Shown in pieces: positions 1,135 to 28,260 of a stretch of 64,000 nucleotides of DNA. The stretch covers positions 186,001-250,000 of the forward strand of contig NZ_JADNRC010000001.1 of NCBI RefSeq assembly GCF_015594725.1, given 5' to 3'. Source of the stretch: Flavobacterium sp. ALJ2 (GTDB lineage Bacteria; Bacteroidota; Bacteroidia; Flavobacteriales; Flavobacteriaceae). The translations under genes were made by a program, and so were the position numbers. The first letter of the stretch is position 1. Each line of letters opens with the position of its first letter. A model generated the notes under the pieces. The model had not been told where the DNA came from. It worked only from the letters and a program-made list of their open reading frames with translations, and did not search any database.

Positions 1135-1220
1135 GAAGTTTTAGCCCTGATAGGAGCGGTATCCTTTATTGTGATTTCTTTTTCATAATAAAGATATAGC
1201 GAATAGCAGGAAGTAGCTTC
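1135..1220 (+). ncRNA. Structured RNA resembling the Flavo-1 motif, copy 1
   Basis: The conserved blocks AGCCCTGATAGGAGCG, ATCC, AAGATATAGCG, AGCAGGA and TAGCTTCT occur in the same order as in the second copy at 28155-28260 (other strand). GAAG (1135-1138) can pair with CTTC (1217-1220). The central arms 1165-1174 and 1183-1192 pair over 10 bp with one G-U. The arm sequence differs from copy 2 while pairing is kept, which is direct evidence for RNA structure. I recall the pattern as Rfam Flavo-1 but cannot confirm it. It ends 20 nt before a lipoprotein ATG with no terminator between, so it may be a 5' leader. Confidence 0.7.
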
Positions 1221-5694: not shown

Positions 5695-5912
5695 AAGTAT
5701 TGGTTTATATTTAATAGCTGTAAATTTAATCAAAATTTATACTTAAAAATGGATTTAACTATTGCTTATGATTTGATTTTTATAAAAACATATAATTATC
5801 TAAAAATCAATAAGTTAAAATCCGCATAAGAAAATACTTGTTTTTGAATTTGTTTATTTGAAAAATAATTTGCAAAATTTGCATCAGAAAATAAATCATT
5901 AACCAATTAATA

Positions 5913-6066
5913 ACGAAGACAATGTTTGTATTAAACCTTACCTCTCAAAACATCACATCAGAATTAGATTCTGTTGTCATGTGTCTTCGTGGCTTTTCGC
6001 AATCATAGCAAATCAATTTTAGATATATGAATAAGCCCGAAGGAAATTAACTTTCGGGCTTTTTTT
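5913..6066 (+). ncRNA. Orphan transcription unit: small RNA or 28-codon mini-gene
   Basis: This stretch follows no plus-strand gene yet ends in a strong terminator (6034-6066). It contains a 9-bp inverted repeat, ACGAAGACA at 5913-5921 and TGTCTTCGT at 5982-5990. It also has a 28-codon frame from ATG 5922 to TAG 6008 that begins MFVLNLTSQN and lies mostly inside the repeat. TAATTTG/AAATTTG sequences at about 5870-5892 resemble -7 boxes. It may be a small RNA, or a peptide gene whose start codon is folded into a stem. It lies 120 bp before the RtcB cluster but is separated from it by the terminator. Confidence 0.45.
6034..6066 (+). terminator. Strong intrinsic terminator of the orphan unit
   Basis: The 8-bp GC-rich arms AGCCCGAA and TTCGGGCT flank an 11-nt loop and are followed directly by six T. 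Confidence 0.9.
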
Positions 6067-6107
6067 ATTCTAGACACTTCAAAAAATTCCCGATACCCCG
6101 AACTCAA

Positions 6108-6126
6108 TTTATCTATTGGAGATAAA
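6108..6126. promoter_or_regulatory. Inverted repeat upstream of the RtcB-PrfH cluster
   Basis: TTTATCT and AGATAAA form a perfect 7-bp inverted repeat around ATTGG, 60 bp before the first start codon of the cluster. It is a possible operator or leader hairpin. No RtcR-type activator gene or clear sigma-54 site is seen. Confidence 0.3.
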
Positions 6127-6186
6127 ATGCTTTTGTCTTGTATTTTTTAATACTTGACAGGAAAACTATAATTTAAATTTTTTAAA

Positions 6187-6969
6187 ATGGATAATTATCT
6201 TTTAGATGATTACATCCAATGTAGTCGTTTAAAGAAAAAAAGGCAAAAAAAGAGATTAGTTAAAGAGGATTTTGAAAAACAATTAATTCAGCTAGATAAG
6301 CTTGAAGGTGAACTTTGGAAAAAGAAAAGATGTTTGCCTTTAGTTCCTTTAGCAACGCCTTACCAAAAAGGATGGCAGCGCTATTTTGTATTAAGGGAAG
6401 ATATAGCAAGATCTAAAGAGGCATTGTTCTATAAAACGGTATTGGAAAAGATAAATACAGTACAATATTCTTCTGATAAATCTTTTAAGAAAAAGAAAAA
6501 GAGAAAAAGAAAACATGTATATGTTGAAAAACTTCAGACTCTAAAAGAGTTTTCAGAATCGGAATGGAGAAGCCCAAAATTAGCTTTGACTGAGAAAGAA
6601 AAAACACATTTTTATAAAAGGGAACGTTGGTGTCCTAATTGTAAACGCTATAAAGTACATTATGTATTTAATGAACCTTGGCGCTATGTATTACGTGTCA
6701 GGCCAAATATGATAACACATACTAAAATGGTCGATGCAGTTTTAGAAAGTGAAATAGATAGGATAGAAAATTATCTAATAAGAAATTTTCTTCGAAATAC
6801 GATAATGAAAATGAAACATGGAAGTGTGAACAATTGGAGATGGAGAGAGAATAAACAATTGAAATATCAAAATCCATTAGACTACAAACAAATTCATACC
6901 GTAATGGATGAATATTATAAAGAAAAAGAATATCTAAATAGTGGGGAAAGAGACCCCAAAGATAAATAA
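6187..6969 (+). CDS. Highly basic CxxC protein heading the RtcB-PrfH cluster, unknown function
   Basis: This 260-aa protein has no family I recognise. It is very rich in Lys/Arg. Residues 13-23 and especially 101-110 (KKKKKRKRKH) are polybasic, consistent with RNA or ribosome binding. A CPNC knuckle at residues 149-152 precedes an aromatic-rich segment (YVFNEPWRYVLRVRPN), and a second W/R-rich patch (NNWRWRENK) lies near the C-terminus. There is no signal peptide or membrane helix, so it should be cytosolic. The stop is 4 bp before the rtcB ATG, which implies one transcript. The inferred role is in RNA recognition for the repair system. This is inference from context and charge only. Confidence 0.75.
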   Translation: MDNYLLDDYIQCSRLKKKRQKKRLVKEDFEKQLIQLDKLEGELWKKKRCLPLVPLATPYQKGWQRYFVLREDIARSKEALFYKTVLEKINTVQYSSDKSFKKKKKRKRKHVYVEKLQTLKEFSESEWRSPKLALTEKEKTHFYKRERWCPNCKRYKVHYVFNEPWRYVLRVRPNMITHTKMVDAVLESEIDRIENYLIRNFLRNTIMKMKHGSVNNWRWRENKQLKYQNPLDYKQIHTVMDEYYKEKEYLNSGERDPKDK

Positions 6970-6973
6970 TACA

Positions 6974-8365
6974 ATGGGAAATAAATTATCCGGAAAGGAC
7001 CTGATTAAAATAGGCTTTCCAAAAAATAATAGTATCAATATAGCCTTGGGGCAAATAAATAGATACCGCAAACGAGAAAAAAAAGAGAGTATATTAAACG
7101 AAGCCAAAGAAGTTTTACTATCGCCTGAAAAATTTACAGGACATGGTACTTGGGGTAAGGTCGCAGAAGGATTGGTAAATCCGGTACAGGTACGAATGCA
7201 TCAGTTAAATAATACTCGTGCGCCATTTTCCATATTTGGAGAAAATGAAATAGATGAGCAGGCTAAGTATCAGTTGTATGATGCTTTAAAATTACCAATT
7301 TCGGTTGCAGGAGCATTAATGCCTGATGCACATTCTGGTTACGGATTGCCAATAGGCGGTGTTTTAGCAACAGATAATGCTGTTATTCCGTATGGAGTAG
7401 GAGTGGATATTGGCTGCCGAATGAGTTTGTCGATTTTTGATATACCTGCATCTTTTTTTAAAGGAAAAGACCATCAATTACAAGCAATTTTAAAAGACAA
7501 TACGAAGTTTGGAATGTATGAAACGCATACCATACGAGCAGATCACGAAGTGTTTAGCCGAAGTGAGTTTCAGGATATTCCACTTATTAAAAGTTTATTA
7601 AGTAAAGCATATAAACAACTTGGTACATCTGGTGGAGGAAATCATTTTGTAGAGTTCGGAATTGCTAAAATTACAAATCCACTTAATGAGTGGAAAATTG
7701 GAGTAGGCGAGTATTTTGCAGTGCTTTCGCATAGTGGATCAAGAGGTTTGGGAGCTAATATTGCCAAACATTATACGTATCTGGCAACTAAACAATGTCC
7801 GTTACCTAAAAATGTACAGCATTTGGCTTGGTTGGATTTAAATACACATGATGGACAAGAGTATTGGCTGGCTATGAACTTAGCTGGAGATTATGCCAAA
7901 GCTTGCCATGATGATATCCACCGCCGAATTGCCAAAGCAATTGGTAAACGTGTGGTTGTAACAATCGAAAATCACCACAATTTTGCATGGAAAGAAACTG
8001 TAAATGGTAAAGAAGCTATTGTACACCGTAAAGGCGCAACTCCTGCAAATGTAGGTGAACTTGGTATTATTCCGGGTTCGATGACTGCACCTGGATTCAT
8101 TGTTCAAGGAAAAGGAAATTCGGAGAGTTTAAACTCCGCATCACATGGAGCAGGACGACTATTTTCTCGTAGAAAATGCAAGGAATCGTTTACACAAAGT
8201 GAGATTAATAAAGTCTTGAAAGCTAACGATGTGAGTTTAATTGGTGGAAATATTGATGAAGCACCAATGGCGTATAAGGACATTAATAAAGTAATGGCTA
8301 ATCAAGCGGAATTGGTGGATGTGTTAGGCACGTTTACACCAAAAATCGTTCGAATGGACAGATAA
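6974..8365 (+). CDS. rtcB: RNA ligase RtcB with N-terminal extension
   Basis: RtcB joins RNA 2',3'-cyclic-phosphate or 3'-phosphate ends to 5'-OH ends using GTP and Mn2+, via a guanylated histidine. Motifs seen are MPDAHSGYGLPIGG, GVGVDIGCRM (metal-binding Cys148), SGGGNHFVEFG, HSGSRGLG, ENHHNF, HRKGATPA, PGSMTAPGF and SHGAGR (nucleophile His391). The start is the ATG at 6974; the frame reaches back to 6941 but overlaps the upstream gene. At 463 aa it is about 55 residues longer than the 408-aa E. coli enzyme. The excess is an N-terminal region (LIKIGFPKNNSINIALGQI). No RtcA, archease or RtcR gene is present. Linkage to prfH suggests the RtcB2-type rRNA repair role. Confidence 0.96.
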   Translation: MGNKLSGKDLIKIGFPKNNSINIALGQINRYRKREKKESILNEAKEVLLSPEKFTGHGTWGKVAEGLVNPVQVRMHQLNNTRAPFSIFGENEIDEQAKYQLYDALKLPISVAGALMPDAHSGYGLPIGGVLATDNAVIPYGVGVDIGCRMSLSIFDIPASFFKGKDHQLQAILKDNTKFGMYETHTIRADHEVFSRSEFQDIPLIKSLLSKAYKQLGTSGGGNHFVEFGIAKITNPLNEWKIGVGEYFAVLSHSGSRGLGANIAKHYTYLATKQCPLPKNVQHLAWLDLNTHDGQEYWLAMNLAGDYAKACHDDIHRRIAKAIGKRVVVTIENHHNFAWKETVNGKEAIVHRKGATPANVGELGIIPGSMTAPGFIVQGKGNSESLNSASHGAGRLFSRRKCKESFTQSEINKVLKANDVSLIGGNIDEAPMAYKDINKVMANQAELVDVLGTFTPKIVRMDR

Positions 8366-8381
8366 TTTAAAATTTAAAAAG

Positions 8382-8993
8382 ATGAAACGATTTCAAGATG
8401 AAAATAGATTTTTAGGAAATTTTACCAATGAGATTTTGGTAAAATGTCCGAAATGTGATTCTAAATCGGCTGTTAAAAGAGAAAATAAAATTGGTTGTGA
8501 ATGCGGTCGTTGCTATTCTGCAGTTTTTGAGTGCAAACATTGTTTTTATAAACTCAAAGAGCCCGTTTATCGATACATTGCTTATGGGAAAGCACATTGC
8601 AATCATTGTTTTGAAAAATATGAATATGAATCGCAACTTTTAAAAGAAAAGCCTGAAAAATATAAAGCTAAATGCCCACATTGTAACTTTCAAGAAGAAT
8701 GGAAACCTAAAACTAAAGAGGTTTTACAAAACTCAAAAGTAAATGATGGCTTAGTAACCGATACATGGTATAATTTACCACTTTGGTTTCAAAAAGAAGT
8801 AGATGGAGAGCTATTTTGGGCTTACAATCAAGAGCATATTGATTATTTAGAAAGGTATATTGGAGCAGATTTGCGAGAACGGAATTCAAAAATAAATTAC
8901 AGTTCAAGCTTAGTATCTCGTTTGCCAAAATTTGTAAAAGAGGCAAAAAATAGAGAAAAACTATTGAAGATTATAGAGAAATGGAAAAAATAA
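8382..8993 (+). CDS. Cysteine-rich zinc-ribbon protein between rtcB and prfH, unknown function
   Basis: This 203-aa protein has eleven cysteines within residues 22-101, mostly as pairs: CPKC (22-25), CECGRC (39-44), CKHC (51-54), CNHC (73-76) and CPHC (98-101). That pattern suggests two or more zinc ribbons, as in nucleic-acid or ribosome-binding proteins. The C-terminal half lacks Cys and contains LPLWFQKEVDGELFWAYNQEHIDYLERYIGA-like aromatic helices, ending in a basic helix (KLLKIIEKWKK). The gene starts 16 bp after rtcB and its last 13 bp overlap the prfH start, so translation with prfH is coupled. Specific function is unknown. It is a candidate adaptor that recognises the damaged RNA or ribosome. 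Confidence 0.8.
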   Translation: MKRFQDENRFLGNFTNEILVKCPKCDSKSAVKRENKIGCECGRCYSAVFECKHCFYKLKEPVYRYIAYGKAHCNHCFEKYEYESQLLKEKPEKYKAKCPHCNFQEEWKPKTKEVLQNSKVNDGLVTDTWYNLPLWFQKEVDGELFWAYNQEHIDYLERYIGADLRERNSKINYSSSLVSRLPKFVKEAKNREKLLKIIEKWKK

Positions 8994-9670
8994 TTCAAAT
9001 AACATCAGGTCGTGGCCCAGCAGAATGTAGCTGGGTTGTGGCTCAGGTTTTAAAAATATTCTTGGAAGAAGCAAATGACAATAAAATAAAGAGTACTTTG
9101 CTTCAAAGAGAAACAGGAATAGAAAATGGTACAGTAGAAACAGCTACAATTTTATTAGAAAGTAATAATCTTGATGAATTTGTGAATTCTTGGATTGGAA
9201 CAATCCAATGGATAGGGCAGAGTCAGTTTAGAAAATTTCATAAACGTAAAAACTGGTTTATCGGAATTTTTGAAGTTGATAAAGCAACAACAACTCAGAT
9301 TTCTGAGAATGACATTCAGTATCAGGCAATGCGGAGTTCGGGTGCTGGAGGACAGCATGTAAATAAGGTAAGTTCGGCAGTTAGAGCAACTCATATCCCT
9401 ACGGGAATAAGCGTTGTATCCATGGATTCACGTTCGCAACATCAGAATAAAAAACTGGCAACAGAGCGATTATTACAGAAATTTAAGGATGAAACGGTCA
9501 AACAATTTAAAGCCGAATTTCAGACGCAATGGATGAATCAATTGCAAATTCAGCGAGGTAATCCGATTCGGGTTTTTCAGGGTTCAGATTTTAAAAAACA
9601 AAAACAAACAAAAAATTACAAACAGGAAAGGCAAAGATTAAAAAGAGAAGATTACTTAGAAAATAATTAA
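8981..9670 (+). CDS. prfH: Peptide chain release factor homologue PrfH
   Basis: This 229-aa protein carries the class I release factor catalytic domain. The GGQ tripeptide (residues 123-125, within SSGAGGQHVNK) triggers hydrolysis of peptidyl-tRNA. It is followed by the usual VRATHIPTGI segment and a basic tail rich in KQKQTKNYKQERQRLKRE. It lacks the codon-reading domains of RF1/RF2. In characterised systems PrfH releases peptides from ribosomes whose 16S rRNA has been cut in the decoding centre, and the partner RtcB reseals the break. The N-terminus QITSGRGPAECSWVV is typical of PrfH and separates it from ArfB. It overlaps the upstream zinc-ribbon gene by 13 bp. Confidence 0.93.
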   Translation: MEKIIQITSGRGPAECSWVVAQVLKIFLEEANDNKIKSTLLQRETGIENGTVETATILLESNNLDEFVNSWIGTIQWIGQSQFRKFHKRKNWFIGIFEVDKATTTQISENDIQYQAMRSSGAGGQHVNKVSSAVRATHIPTGISVVSMDSRSQHQNKKLATERLLQKFKDETVKQFKAEFQTQWMNQLQIQRGNPIRVFQGSDFKKQKQTKNYKQERQRLKREDYLENN

Positions 9671-9706
9671 TCTCTAAAATCTTGAATTTATAAAATAGAA
9701 TAGATT

Positions 9707-10231
9707 ATGAAAACAGTAGATAAATATCTTTTTCAGGCATTAGATAGTTATCCATATTCGTTGGAAGAAACCATCGAATCATTGGATTATGCATTGTCTT
9801 ATGACGATAAAAACACGATGGCTTTATGCTTATATGGACAAGTTTTAAGCGATCAGTTATTTAAATATGAGGAAGCCAAAGAATATTTTCAGCAGGCCAT
9901 TTCGATTAATATTAATACAGTCGAAGTATATCCTTTTTATATTCATACTTTGATTTTGAATGAAGATTACAAAGAAGCAACGAAGTTGATTGACTTTGCA
10001 TTGACTATTAAAGGAATTAACAAAGTAGAGATTTTCCTTAAGAAAGTAATGTTTTTGGAGAGTCAGCAAGAATTTAAAAAAGCGTTGAAAGCTCTGAAAA
10101 AAGCAAGACTTGTAACTATAAATTCAGCGTATGATTATGATATTGAAGAGACTGAAAAAAGATTAAATAAAAAAATAAAAAAAGGTTCTAAAAAAGAGGT
10201 ATCTATTAAAAATAAAAATAAAAAGAAATAA
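9707..10231 (+). CDS. TPR protein closing the RtcB-PrfH cluster
   Basis: This 174-aa cytosolic protein is built of tetratricopeptide-like helical pairs. Clear examples are MALCLYGQVLSDQLFKYEEAKEYFQQAI (about residues 39-66) and YPFYIHTLILNEDYKEATKLIDFAL (about 75-103). A further helix pair around KKALKALKKARL follows, and then a strongly basic tail (KKIKKGSKKEVSIKNKNKKK). TPR arrays usually bind other proteins, and the Lys-rich tail suggests RNA contact. It starts 36 bp after prfH and precedes an intrinsic terminator, so it is the last gene of the unit. Membership in the repair system is inferred from strand and spacing. Function is unknown. Confidence 0.75.
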   Translation: MKTVDKYLFQALDSYPYSLEETIESLDYALSYDDKNTMALCLYGQVLSDQLFKYEEAKEYFQQAISININTVEVYPFYIHTLILNEDYKEATKLIDFALTIKGINKVEIFLKKVMFLESQQEFKKALKALKKARLVTINSAYDYDIEETEKRLNKKIKKGSKKEVSIKNKNKKK

Positions 10232-10237
10232 TGTTAG

Positions 10238-10267
10238 AAAAGGATGTCGTAATAGATATCCTTTTTT
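10238..10267 (+). terminator. Intrinsic terminator of the RtcB-PrfH cluster
   Basis: The 7-bp arms AAAGGAT and ATCCTTT flank a 12-nt loop and are followed by T residues, 7 bp after the TPR gene stop. Confidence 0.7.
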
Positions 10268-10446
10268 ATTTCCATAAATTTATATTTATTAAAAATATAT
10301 ATTTTAAACAGGCTATAATTAGAGCGCTACGTTTTTTGTATTAATTTTTTCACAAACATACTTTAATTTTAAAGATAAATATTTGTTACTTTTAGGAATT
10401 AGCCTCATTTTTACATTCTATTTTCTTAAAATACACATAGAATCAT

Positions 10447-28154: not shown

Positions 28155-28260
28155 TTTCTATAAGAAGCTAATCCCGCTGTCCGCTATATCTTTTATGGTG
28201 AACCCCACCATAAAAGGATGTCGCTCCCATCAGGGCTAGGGATATAGTAACTTATAGAAA
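28155..28260 (-). ncRNA. Structured RNA resembling the Flavo-1 motif, copy 2
   Basis: The minus strand carries AGCCCTGATGGGAGCGACATCC, then an 11-bp hairpin (28190-28200 with 28206-28216, loop of 5), then AAAAGATATAGCGGACAGCGGGATTAGCTTCT-type sequence split as in copy 1. An outer stem TTTCTATAAG/CTTATAGAAA (28251-28260 with 28155-28164) is perfect over 10 bp. The blocks match 1135-1220 while the hairpin sequence differs and still pairs. A one-mismatch -7 box (TAAATTTC, 28286-28293) lies about 25 nt upstream. No same-strand gene follows, so this copy looks free-standing. Confidence 0.75.

Follow-up and report, generated by a model that had tools for sequence, protein, structure and literature searches.

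The 64,000-nucleotide stretch of Flavobacterium sp. ALJ2 analysed here (contig NZ_JADNRC010000001.1, positions 186,001 to 250,000; hereafter the window) carries a five-gene RtcB-PrfH (RFH-RtcB) rRNA repair operon, for which 16S rRNA religation and peptide release are predicted. This operon is probably inducible, as comparison of the DNA preceding it points to a transcription attenuator with a leader open reading frame (ORF) at 5874-6102, which would be switched on by ribosomes that halt early. An earlier interpretation of the window, made from its letters alone (the sequence-only reading), had described the genes and overlooked the strongest regulatory feature, namely the terminator at 6033-6068 and the leader ORF preceding it. 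Such an RNA switch before this operon is previously undescribed; the accessory genes have already been described in outline.

The leader region was compared among 46 Flavobacteriales loci with readable upstream DNA, which belong to two families and comprise 44 loci after removal of duplicates. The arrangement of promoter, leader ORF and alternating helices (Table 1) was found in 46/46 loci (44/44 distinct ones), always before the first gene of the operon, i.e. upstream of the gene encoding protein A or, where this gene is absent, upstream of rtcB. A -7 box NANNTTTG was located 25-36 nt before region 1 in 42/44 loci, in most cases with an upstream TTG; the flavobacterial promoter consensus is TAnnTTTG (PMC9723704). 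The leader peptides are 25-28 amino acids long and range from MFVLNLTSQNITSELDSVVMCLRGFSQS to MFRTKQNSTVGLPLMVVRLRGLVHS; nearly all start with MF and end with LRGxxxS-stop. The stop codon was UAG in 42/44 loci and UAA in two, and the last residue was serine except in one genus, where it is lysine. Despite the variable ORF length, region 2 began exactly 21 nt before the leader stop codon in 44/44 loci. The last four codons showed pN/pS values of 0.08, 0.00 and 0.14 in three clades, compared with 0.55-0.80 in the middle of the ORF; this conservation of the tail as protein indicates that the leader ORF is most likely translated in the cell. Searching 12 whole genomes, we found the leader pattern solely at the rtcB-prfH locus, in six of the seven Flavobacteriales with prfH, the seventh having a UAA stop that the search pattern excluded. 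It was not found in three Flavobacterium genomes without prfH, and reversed-pattern controls gave two chance matches in the 12 genomes. A scan of positions 5800-6200 against Rfam 15 returned no family at the gathering threshold; the best sub-threshold scores were those of the trpB motif (27.7 of 59 bits) and His_leader (22.2 of 49 bits).

Table 1. Features of the rtcB-prfH operon and its predicted leader in the window.
Feature	Position	Strand	Remarks
Predicted sigma-A promoter, Bacteroidota type	5850-5881	+	TTG 5850-5852; AAAATTTG 5874-5881
Region 1, leader ORF initiation region	5913-5921	+	ACGAAGACA; pairs with region 2 (helix 1:2)
Leader ORF	5922-6008	+	MFVLNLTSQNITSELDSVVMCLRGFSQS, UAG stop; 28 codons
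Region 2, antiterminator 5' arm	5985-5995	+	CUUCGUGGCUU; codons LRG of the leader; from spacing and helix 2:3 statistics
Region 3	6033-6042	+	AAGCCCGAAG; pairs with region 2 (antiterminator) or 4 (terminator)
Region 4 and U-run	6052-6068	+	UUUCGGGCUU; with region 3, predicted intrinsic terminator (terminator scan)
Region 5	6089-6102	+	CCCGA...CCCGAA; pairing with region 4 possible upon read-through
Protein A gene	6187-6969	+	260 aa, very basic, mixed alpha/beta
RtcB RNA ligase	6974-8365	+	463 aa; ATG at 6974, inside longer GTG ORF from 6941
Zinc-ribbon protein gene	8382-8993	+	203 aa; N-terminal half apparently swapped between lineages (alignment)
PrfH release factor	8981-9670	+	229 aa, GGQ present
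TPR protein, lysine-rich tail	9707-10231	+	174 aa; Pfam TPR
Operon-closing hairpin and T-run	10238-10268	+	AAAAGGATGTCgtaataGATATCCTTTTTT; read directly from the sequence

The alternative helices were supported by base-pair conservation and covariation. Helix 1:2, to which region 1 contributes ACGAAG, contains the core CGAAG:CUUCG in 44/44 loci, flanked by an A-U pair in 33, C-G in 8 and U-G in 2. For helix 2:3, 98.3% of the cells of a plain MAFFT alignment were paired, compared with at most 61% when the arms were slid; covariation exceeded 500/500 shuffles with double changes in 9 cells, and RNAalifold picked this helix unguided. One variable position covaries three ways (C-G-C in 27 loci, U-A-U in 9), and the neighbouring position changes from G-C-G to A-U-A in two loci of a second genus. 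Pairing between regions 3 and 4 is preserved in 40-44 of 44 loci, and both arms show changes. CCCGA or a compensated form of it occurs 15-35 nt after every terminator and covaries with region 4 in the loci L056/L057 and L059; the longest 4:5 pairing run, with a mean of 7.0 compared with 5.8 in shuffles, is a weak signal, and support for this pairing comes mainly from the compensated cases. Region 5 is transcribed only after read-through. What the comparison of loci establishes is that the leader ORF and the alternative helices are present, that the helices are conserved and covary, and that both are linked to the operon.

Folding states were computed with simple ribosome footprints. The bare, unconstrained RNA was predicted to form helix 1:2 in 43/44 loci and the terminator helix 3:4 in 44/44, corresponding to an off state, and a ribosome placed on the stop codon, where it covers region 2, likewise left 3:4 in 44/44. 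With a ribosome halted in the first codons and the polymerase just past region 3, the antiterminator 2:3 was formed in 41/44 loci (on). We infer from these predictions how the switch may operate. In the absence of translation, pairing of 1:2 and 3:4 would let the terminator stop RNA polymerase, and during normal translation the ribosome at the leader stop would cover region 2, with 3:4 again causing termination. A ribosome that initiates and then halts within the first few codons would cover region 1, leaving 2:3 to pair and the operon to be transcribed. The fixed 21-nt spacing and the location of region 1 at the leader initiation site are best understood if it is important where the ribosome stands and, as region 1 is the initiation region of the leader itself, only very early halts should switch.

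As to the signal, ribosomes cleaved by colicin E3 fail in elongation rather than initiation and come to a near-complete halt after a few codons (Lancaster et al. 2008, PMC2615495), and RtcB2-PrfH of E. coli confers protection against this toxin (PMC9223846). Since initiation still takes place on E3-cut ribosomes and the halt comes early, the very damage that the operon repairs could be what the switch senses: ribosomes cut in the decoding centre would initiate, halt early and thereby induce the operon. RtcB would then reseal the rRNA break and PrfH would release the peptide, so that the damaged ribosome could be dismantled. The behaviour of E3-cut ribosomes together with the protection conferred by RtcB2-PrfH suggests damage as the best-supported signal, and the sequence-only reading, which had thought of E3-like toxins, agrees in this respect with both the E. 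coli biochemistry (PMC9223846) and the proposed switch.

Putative leaders were also seen in other lineages. The rtcB-prfH loci of E. coli and Proteus each have, exactly 64 nt before rtcB, an ORF of 15 codons that is preceded by a strong Shine-Dalgarno sequence, encoding MTNPLSMTLCRPFQD in E. coli (L174, ~1747-1794) and MTTTNMNTLCGQSQK in Proteus (L176, ~1256-1303), each followed by a stop codon. The Shine-Dalgarno stretch ACUGCAAGGAGG (region 1) pairs with CUCUUUGCAG/CUCUUUGCGG within the ORF, which can instead pair downstream with GUCUGC/GUCCGC, a compensated change; the hairpin that follows covers the start of rtcB. This leader is predicted to follow the same logic acting on translation of rtcB, the start of which would be exposed upon an early halt. 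The E. coli leader region was present in 5343/5426 complete genomes, although the alignment often ends before the rtcB2 start. A Klebsiella IncC plasmid, Shinella and Aureibacter also have candidate short ORFs with a Shine-Dalgarno sequence ahead of rtcB; Methylosinus and two further families of Bacteroidota have candidate short ORFs as well. The candidates at L066, L067, L082, L177, L178 and L180 read MTEQFYISSLFIAA, MKHLTSISPLSLIA, MLVYHSNIAL, MQNTSTSFAGLVR, MMQNISTRPIGVPV and MKAIISRSLRSPTA; several of them are followed by strong hairpins. The scan used revealed no leader in Skermanella (L181) and nothing usable in Nonomuraea and Novosphingobium, where the rtcB starts are unsure. It is conceivable, and we propose it tentatively, that rtcB-prfH operons are generally controlled by damaged ribosomes, by a logic that arose, or was retained, as attenuation of transcription in Flavobacteriales and of translation in Enterobacterales, with protein A, the zinc-ribbon protein and a nucleotidyltransferase as exchangeable parts tuning which cuts are repaired.

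Several observations weigh against a damage-sensing attenuator. At equilibrium the terminator is stronger than the antiterminator (mean -14.2 compared with -11.3 kcal/mol), and with this difference of about 3 kcal/mol the switching must be kinetic. The ribosome footprint follows a rule of thumb. Most of the covariation falls on a single pair position, where independent changes are few, and five core pairs are invariant; MAFFT misaligned the terminator arm, which is offset between clades, making the alignment-based 3:4 count weak; for this reason the MAFFT columns were abandoned for 3:4 and a region-anchored count was used. By prediction, the start of rtcB becomes only modestly more accessible in E. 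coli (0.32 to 0.49) and Proteus (0.32 to 0.42), and the effect is unclear in the Klebsiella plasmid version. Finally, ribosomes halted by antibiotics or by starvation could give the same RNA state.

This last point leads to the explanation that the attenuator is real and senses ribosome-targeting antibiotics or translation inhibition in general, like the vmlR, topAI or whiB7 leaders. Attenuators with antibiotic-sensing upstream ORFs (uORFs) are well documented (PMC9226507, PMC12121999), any drug halting ribosomes early on the leader would produce the same RNA state, and the nucleotidyltransferase encoded in the operon of 7 genomes scored above the cut-off of the aminoglycoside-2''-adenylyltransferase family. 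However, the operon encodes rRNA resealing and not drug resistance, so that we consider this explanation unlikely, bearing in mind that damage and antibiotic signals are not mutually exclusive. We regard it as very improbable that the leader works by amino-acid attenuation, or that the small gene and the terminator are stray elements with no part in the operon. Leader-peptide attenuation is suspected upstream of flavobacterial amino-acid biosynthesis operons (PMC9723704), and the terminator of the window taken alone could be a plain one; yet the 46 leader peptides contain no run of one codon and share no amino acid except in MF... and LRGxxxS, and the position before the operon in 46/46 loci, unique per genome, the fixed stop spacing and the covarying helix 2:3 all speak against such an origin.

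The operon itself was largely as the sequence-only reading had described it. An ORF check of the window confirmed five genes on the plus strand separated by 4, 16, -13 and 36 bp, and the proposed assignment of RtcB and PrfH as an rRNA-repair pair was upheld, as RtcB passed the cut-off of Pfam PF01139 (275 bits, cut-off 27) and PrfH that of NCBIfam TIGR03072 (236.5 bits, cut-off 166.65). With 135.9 bits, RtcB remained under the cut-off of TIGR03073 (RtcB of PrfH operon; 271.8) and is therefore not filed as that equivalog, although it is encoded beside PrfH. The RtcB motifs VDIGC, GGGNH, SHSGSRGLG, HRKGATPA and SASHGAGR align with those of solved RtcB structures. PrfH, which is known from sequence here, aligned with the solved PrfH chain 9mor (structures 9mor/9mq4) over residues 2-224 (E 1.1e-77) and matched the chain 7sa4 over its whole length. 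The terminator claimed after the last gene is readable as a hairpin with a T-run, and was not among the terminators listed by a consensus scan. All five proteins were compared with the PADLOC HMMs up to an E value of 1 without a match.

Distribution was counted in 395 Bacteroidota genomes, 27 of which encode PrfH: 25 Flavobacteriales and one genome from each of two other families. The gene order of the window recurs in more than 20 Flavobacterium species and the cluster is far from chance; the closest named species is F. frigoritolerans, with 91-100% identity over the operon proteins. The co-directional rtcB and prfH genes of the window are separated by 616 bp, a slot occupied by the zinc-ribbon gene and empty in 12/25 Flavobacteriales. 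The genome, 4.36 Mb in size, contains a single copy of RtcB. In Flavobacterium without PrfH (6 of 7 sampled genomes without PrfH and the TPR protein, plus G331 and others), RtcB was absent except in G331, suggesting that the module is gained and lost as a whole. In G331 (L163), rtcB is directly followed by a relative of the TPR gene and a second rtcB is located elsewhere. Relative to an MFS transporter gene, the rtcB module is placed downstream in some related genomes and upstream in the window and others, and it invariably adjoins a bshC-like gene (L018, L019, L021, L075 and L080 compared with the window and L079), which suggests local relocation. Elsewhere in the window, two Flavo-1 RNAs (Rfam RF01705, a family of unknown function) are present at 1139-1217 (+) and 28166-28241 (-).

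The accessory genes differ in how closely they are tied to this core. Protein A was encoded in 11/395 genomes, all of which (11/11) have PrfH, and invariably at the locus (hypergeometric probability ~2e-14, computed by hand and inflated by relatedness). It had no match in Pfam, NCBIfam or PADLOC and was not found in viral contigs or plasmids. A "polybasic CxxC protein" had been proposed; the basic character holds, but the motif reads WCPNC in some members and WCSNF, WSSVF or WSKVF in others, and a zinc site at the CxxC was rejected because of this lack of conservation. A second copy of protein A in L056 (4298-4972, prfH on the plus strand) lies upstream of the leader, outside the control of the putative switch. 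The last gene product reached the cut-offs of Pfam TPR_2/TPR_8, as expected from the sequence-only reading, and its gene lies immediately after prfH in all Flavobacteriales that have prfH (25/25); it is absent from the locus in the two PrfH genomes of other families. Relatives of the TPR protein were found without PrfH in three further genomes, in one directly after an rtcB. The nucleotidyltransferase, with an intact-looking GG...DxD motif and above the cut-off of Pfam Aminoglyc_resit, is absent from the window locus; in 7/395 genomes, and nowhere else, it is encoded between rtcB and prfH (L056, L057, L058, L059, L061, L070 and L071; 65-78% conserved), in the slot of the zinc-ribbon gene of the window. 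Signs of decay were seen in individual relatives, in which rtcB is broken near its start (L024, 6602-7992), protein A is split by a frameshift (L019, 5807-6605) or the TPR gene is truncated (L023, ~9413-9850).

The zinc-ribbon protein showed a different distribution. Sequence and alignment bore out the 11 cysteines in five clusters noted before, from which two zinc ribbons are predicted, followed by a conserved C-terminal domain (FWAYNxEH...LRERN...LPKFVKEAKNREKLLKII) covered by no Pfam family. It was present in 17 Bacteroidota genomes, beside prfH in 6 and elsewhere in 11, and thus adjoins rtcB-prfH in 6/27 PrfH genomes. Stand-alone relatives of 150-170 aa (L027, 7884-8342, and plasmid matches) have one zinc ribbon and the same C-terminal domain, FWAYNxEH...LRER; such shorter relatives occur in Pedobacter and on plasmids of Streptomyces, Priestia and Nostoc, with no rtcB nearby in the regions read. 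The idea of a dedicated PrfH partner is weakened by this wide distribution. The zinc-ribbon protein is hence optional and common elsewhere, whereas protein A, the nucleotidyltransferase and the TPR protein are truly tied to repair. The linkage of all three extra genes to rtcB-prfH, which the sequence-only reading had assumed and for which it had suggested a neighbourhood analysis across Bacteroidota, accordingly stood for protein A (11/11) and the TPR protein (25/25) and lacked support in that form for the zinc family, found mostly at other loci.

Alleles of the accessory genes appear to have been exchanged while the core was conserved. Between the window and L018, protein identity was 99% for RtcB, 97% for PrfH, 87% for the TPR protein, 81% for protein A and 55% for the zinc-ribbon protein; DNA identity dropped from about 88% to 57% within the zinc ribbons only and recovered in the C-terminal domain. 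An independent case was found in L009 and L022, where DNA identity fell from 90% to 54% inside the zinc-ribbon half. Keeping the clade of the window together was rejected on the zinc-ribbon tree (AU p 0.0004), and grouping by zinc-ribbon type was rejected on the PrfH tree (p 1.5e-127). These alignments and trees argue that the zinc-ribbon half was swapped between lineages. For protein A, support for an exchange consists of a single replacement between L007 and L008 (dS 1.9 compared with 0.14-0.18 for the other genes); clade tests for this protein alone were not significant (AU p 0.19 and 0.28).

One may ask what the accessory proteins contribute to repair. The operon would consist of a core with a TPR protein constant in Flavobacteriales and of optional, fast-changing partners, namely protein A, the zinc-ribbon protein or, in other species, the nucleotidyltransferase. 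The sequence-only reading had proposed a complex in which protein A, the zinc-ribbon and the TPR protein join PrfH and RtcB to recognise the damaged decoding centre. The exclusive occurrence of protein A at rtcB-prfH loci, the constancy of the TPR gene, the basic character of all three proteins and the overlap of the zinc-ribbon gene with prfH are in favour of such a complex, and rRNA contact was proposed for the same protein classes (PMC6514570). Most rtcB-prfH loci, however, lack protein A, and most lack the zinc-ribbon protein, so that the core function requires neither; in addition, the zinc family is found mostly elsewhere and the TPR protein occurs without prfH too, once directly after an rtcB. 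The complex is thus possible but doubtful. Recognition of the decoding centre or recruitment of RtcB by all three extras found no direct support, and structure prediction of protein A and the zinc-ribbon protein alone, as that reading had suggested, gave no informative match in the PDB: the AF2 model of protein A (pLDDT 72, pTM 0.42) had no informative Foldseek match and a best VIA-align 2 Z of 5.1 over 54 residues, allowing no fold assignment, and that of the zinc-ribbon protein (pLDDT 82, pTM 0.70) had likewise none by Foldseek and a best Z of 3.6 over 42 residues, reflecting generic zinc-ribbon likeness only. Somewhat less probable still appears the explanation in which protein A and the zinc-ribbon protein serve as exchangeable determinants of specificity that match the repair machine to different cuts or toxins, with the nucleotidyltransferase as a third option in the same slot. 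The sharp edges of the zinc-ribbon replacement in two lineages (window/L018 and L009/L022), the replacement of protein A between L007 and L008 and the absence of the zinc-ribbon protein and the nucleotidyltransferase together between rtcB and prfH in any sampled genome would fit this assumption; but fast turnover fits toxin, antitoxin or decoy roles too, the lack of overlap between 6 zinc-ribbon and 7 nucleotidyltransferase genes in 25 loci has a probability of ~0.07 (hypergeometric, hand calculation) and is not significant, nor are the clade tests for protein A alone. The earlier interpretation was thus half right and is partly supported: a repair operon with linked partners is present, the joint role of which is putative.

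Tian et al. reportedly described the RtcB2-PrfH ribosome-repair operon of E. coli ATCC 25922 in PNAS in 2022. Both that operon (PMC9223846) and the one in the window have adjacent rtcB and prfH genes on one strand and a PrfH above TIGR03072; they differ in gene number (two in E. coli, five in the window), in the 463-aa form of RtcB below TIGR03073 found in the window, and in the predicted action of the leader, on transcription in the window and on rtcB translation in E. coli. The leader of the window shares a short leader ORF, mutually exclusive 1:2, 2:3 and 3:4 helices and an intrinsic terminator with uORF attenuators such as vmlR (PMC9226507), topAI (PMC12121999) and those of the trp type. 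In contrast to these, its target is ribosome repair, region 1 is its own initiation region and it lacks a run of control codons. The accessory genes, called uncharacterised partners by the sequence-only reading, had not gone unnoticed: accretions to RFH-RtcB published in 2019 include a TPR gene and a Pol-beta nucleotidyltransferase (Burroughs & Aravind 2019, PMC6514570, Fig. 4G-I), a protein in which one or two zinc ribbons are combined with a charged helical C-terminus, and a homologue-less charged-helical protein ('RFR'); rRNA contact and scaffolding were suggested for these genes (PMC6514570). The window, with its TPR protein, zinc ribbons and homologue-less basic protein A, has the same accessory classes and the same core, and the gene cluster is consequently a new member of a known neighbourhood. 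Neither a leader or attenuator nor allele swapping is described in the text of that study, which likewise gives no exclusivity counts and does not mention that the zinc family occurs at other loci (PMC6514570).

These results shift attention away from the accessory proteins, which had been noted in 2019, and towards the region controlling the operon, and they separate the accessory genes tied to repair (protein A, the nucleotidyltransferase and the TPR protein) from the untied zinc family. The study of E. coli RtcB2-PrfH does not mention a leader or attenuation, and how cells sense cut ribosomes and then induce RtcB-PrfH is not addressed there (PMC9223846). If the proposed switch is true, a leader ORF read by the damaged ribosome itself would answer how cut ribosomes are sensed.

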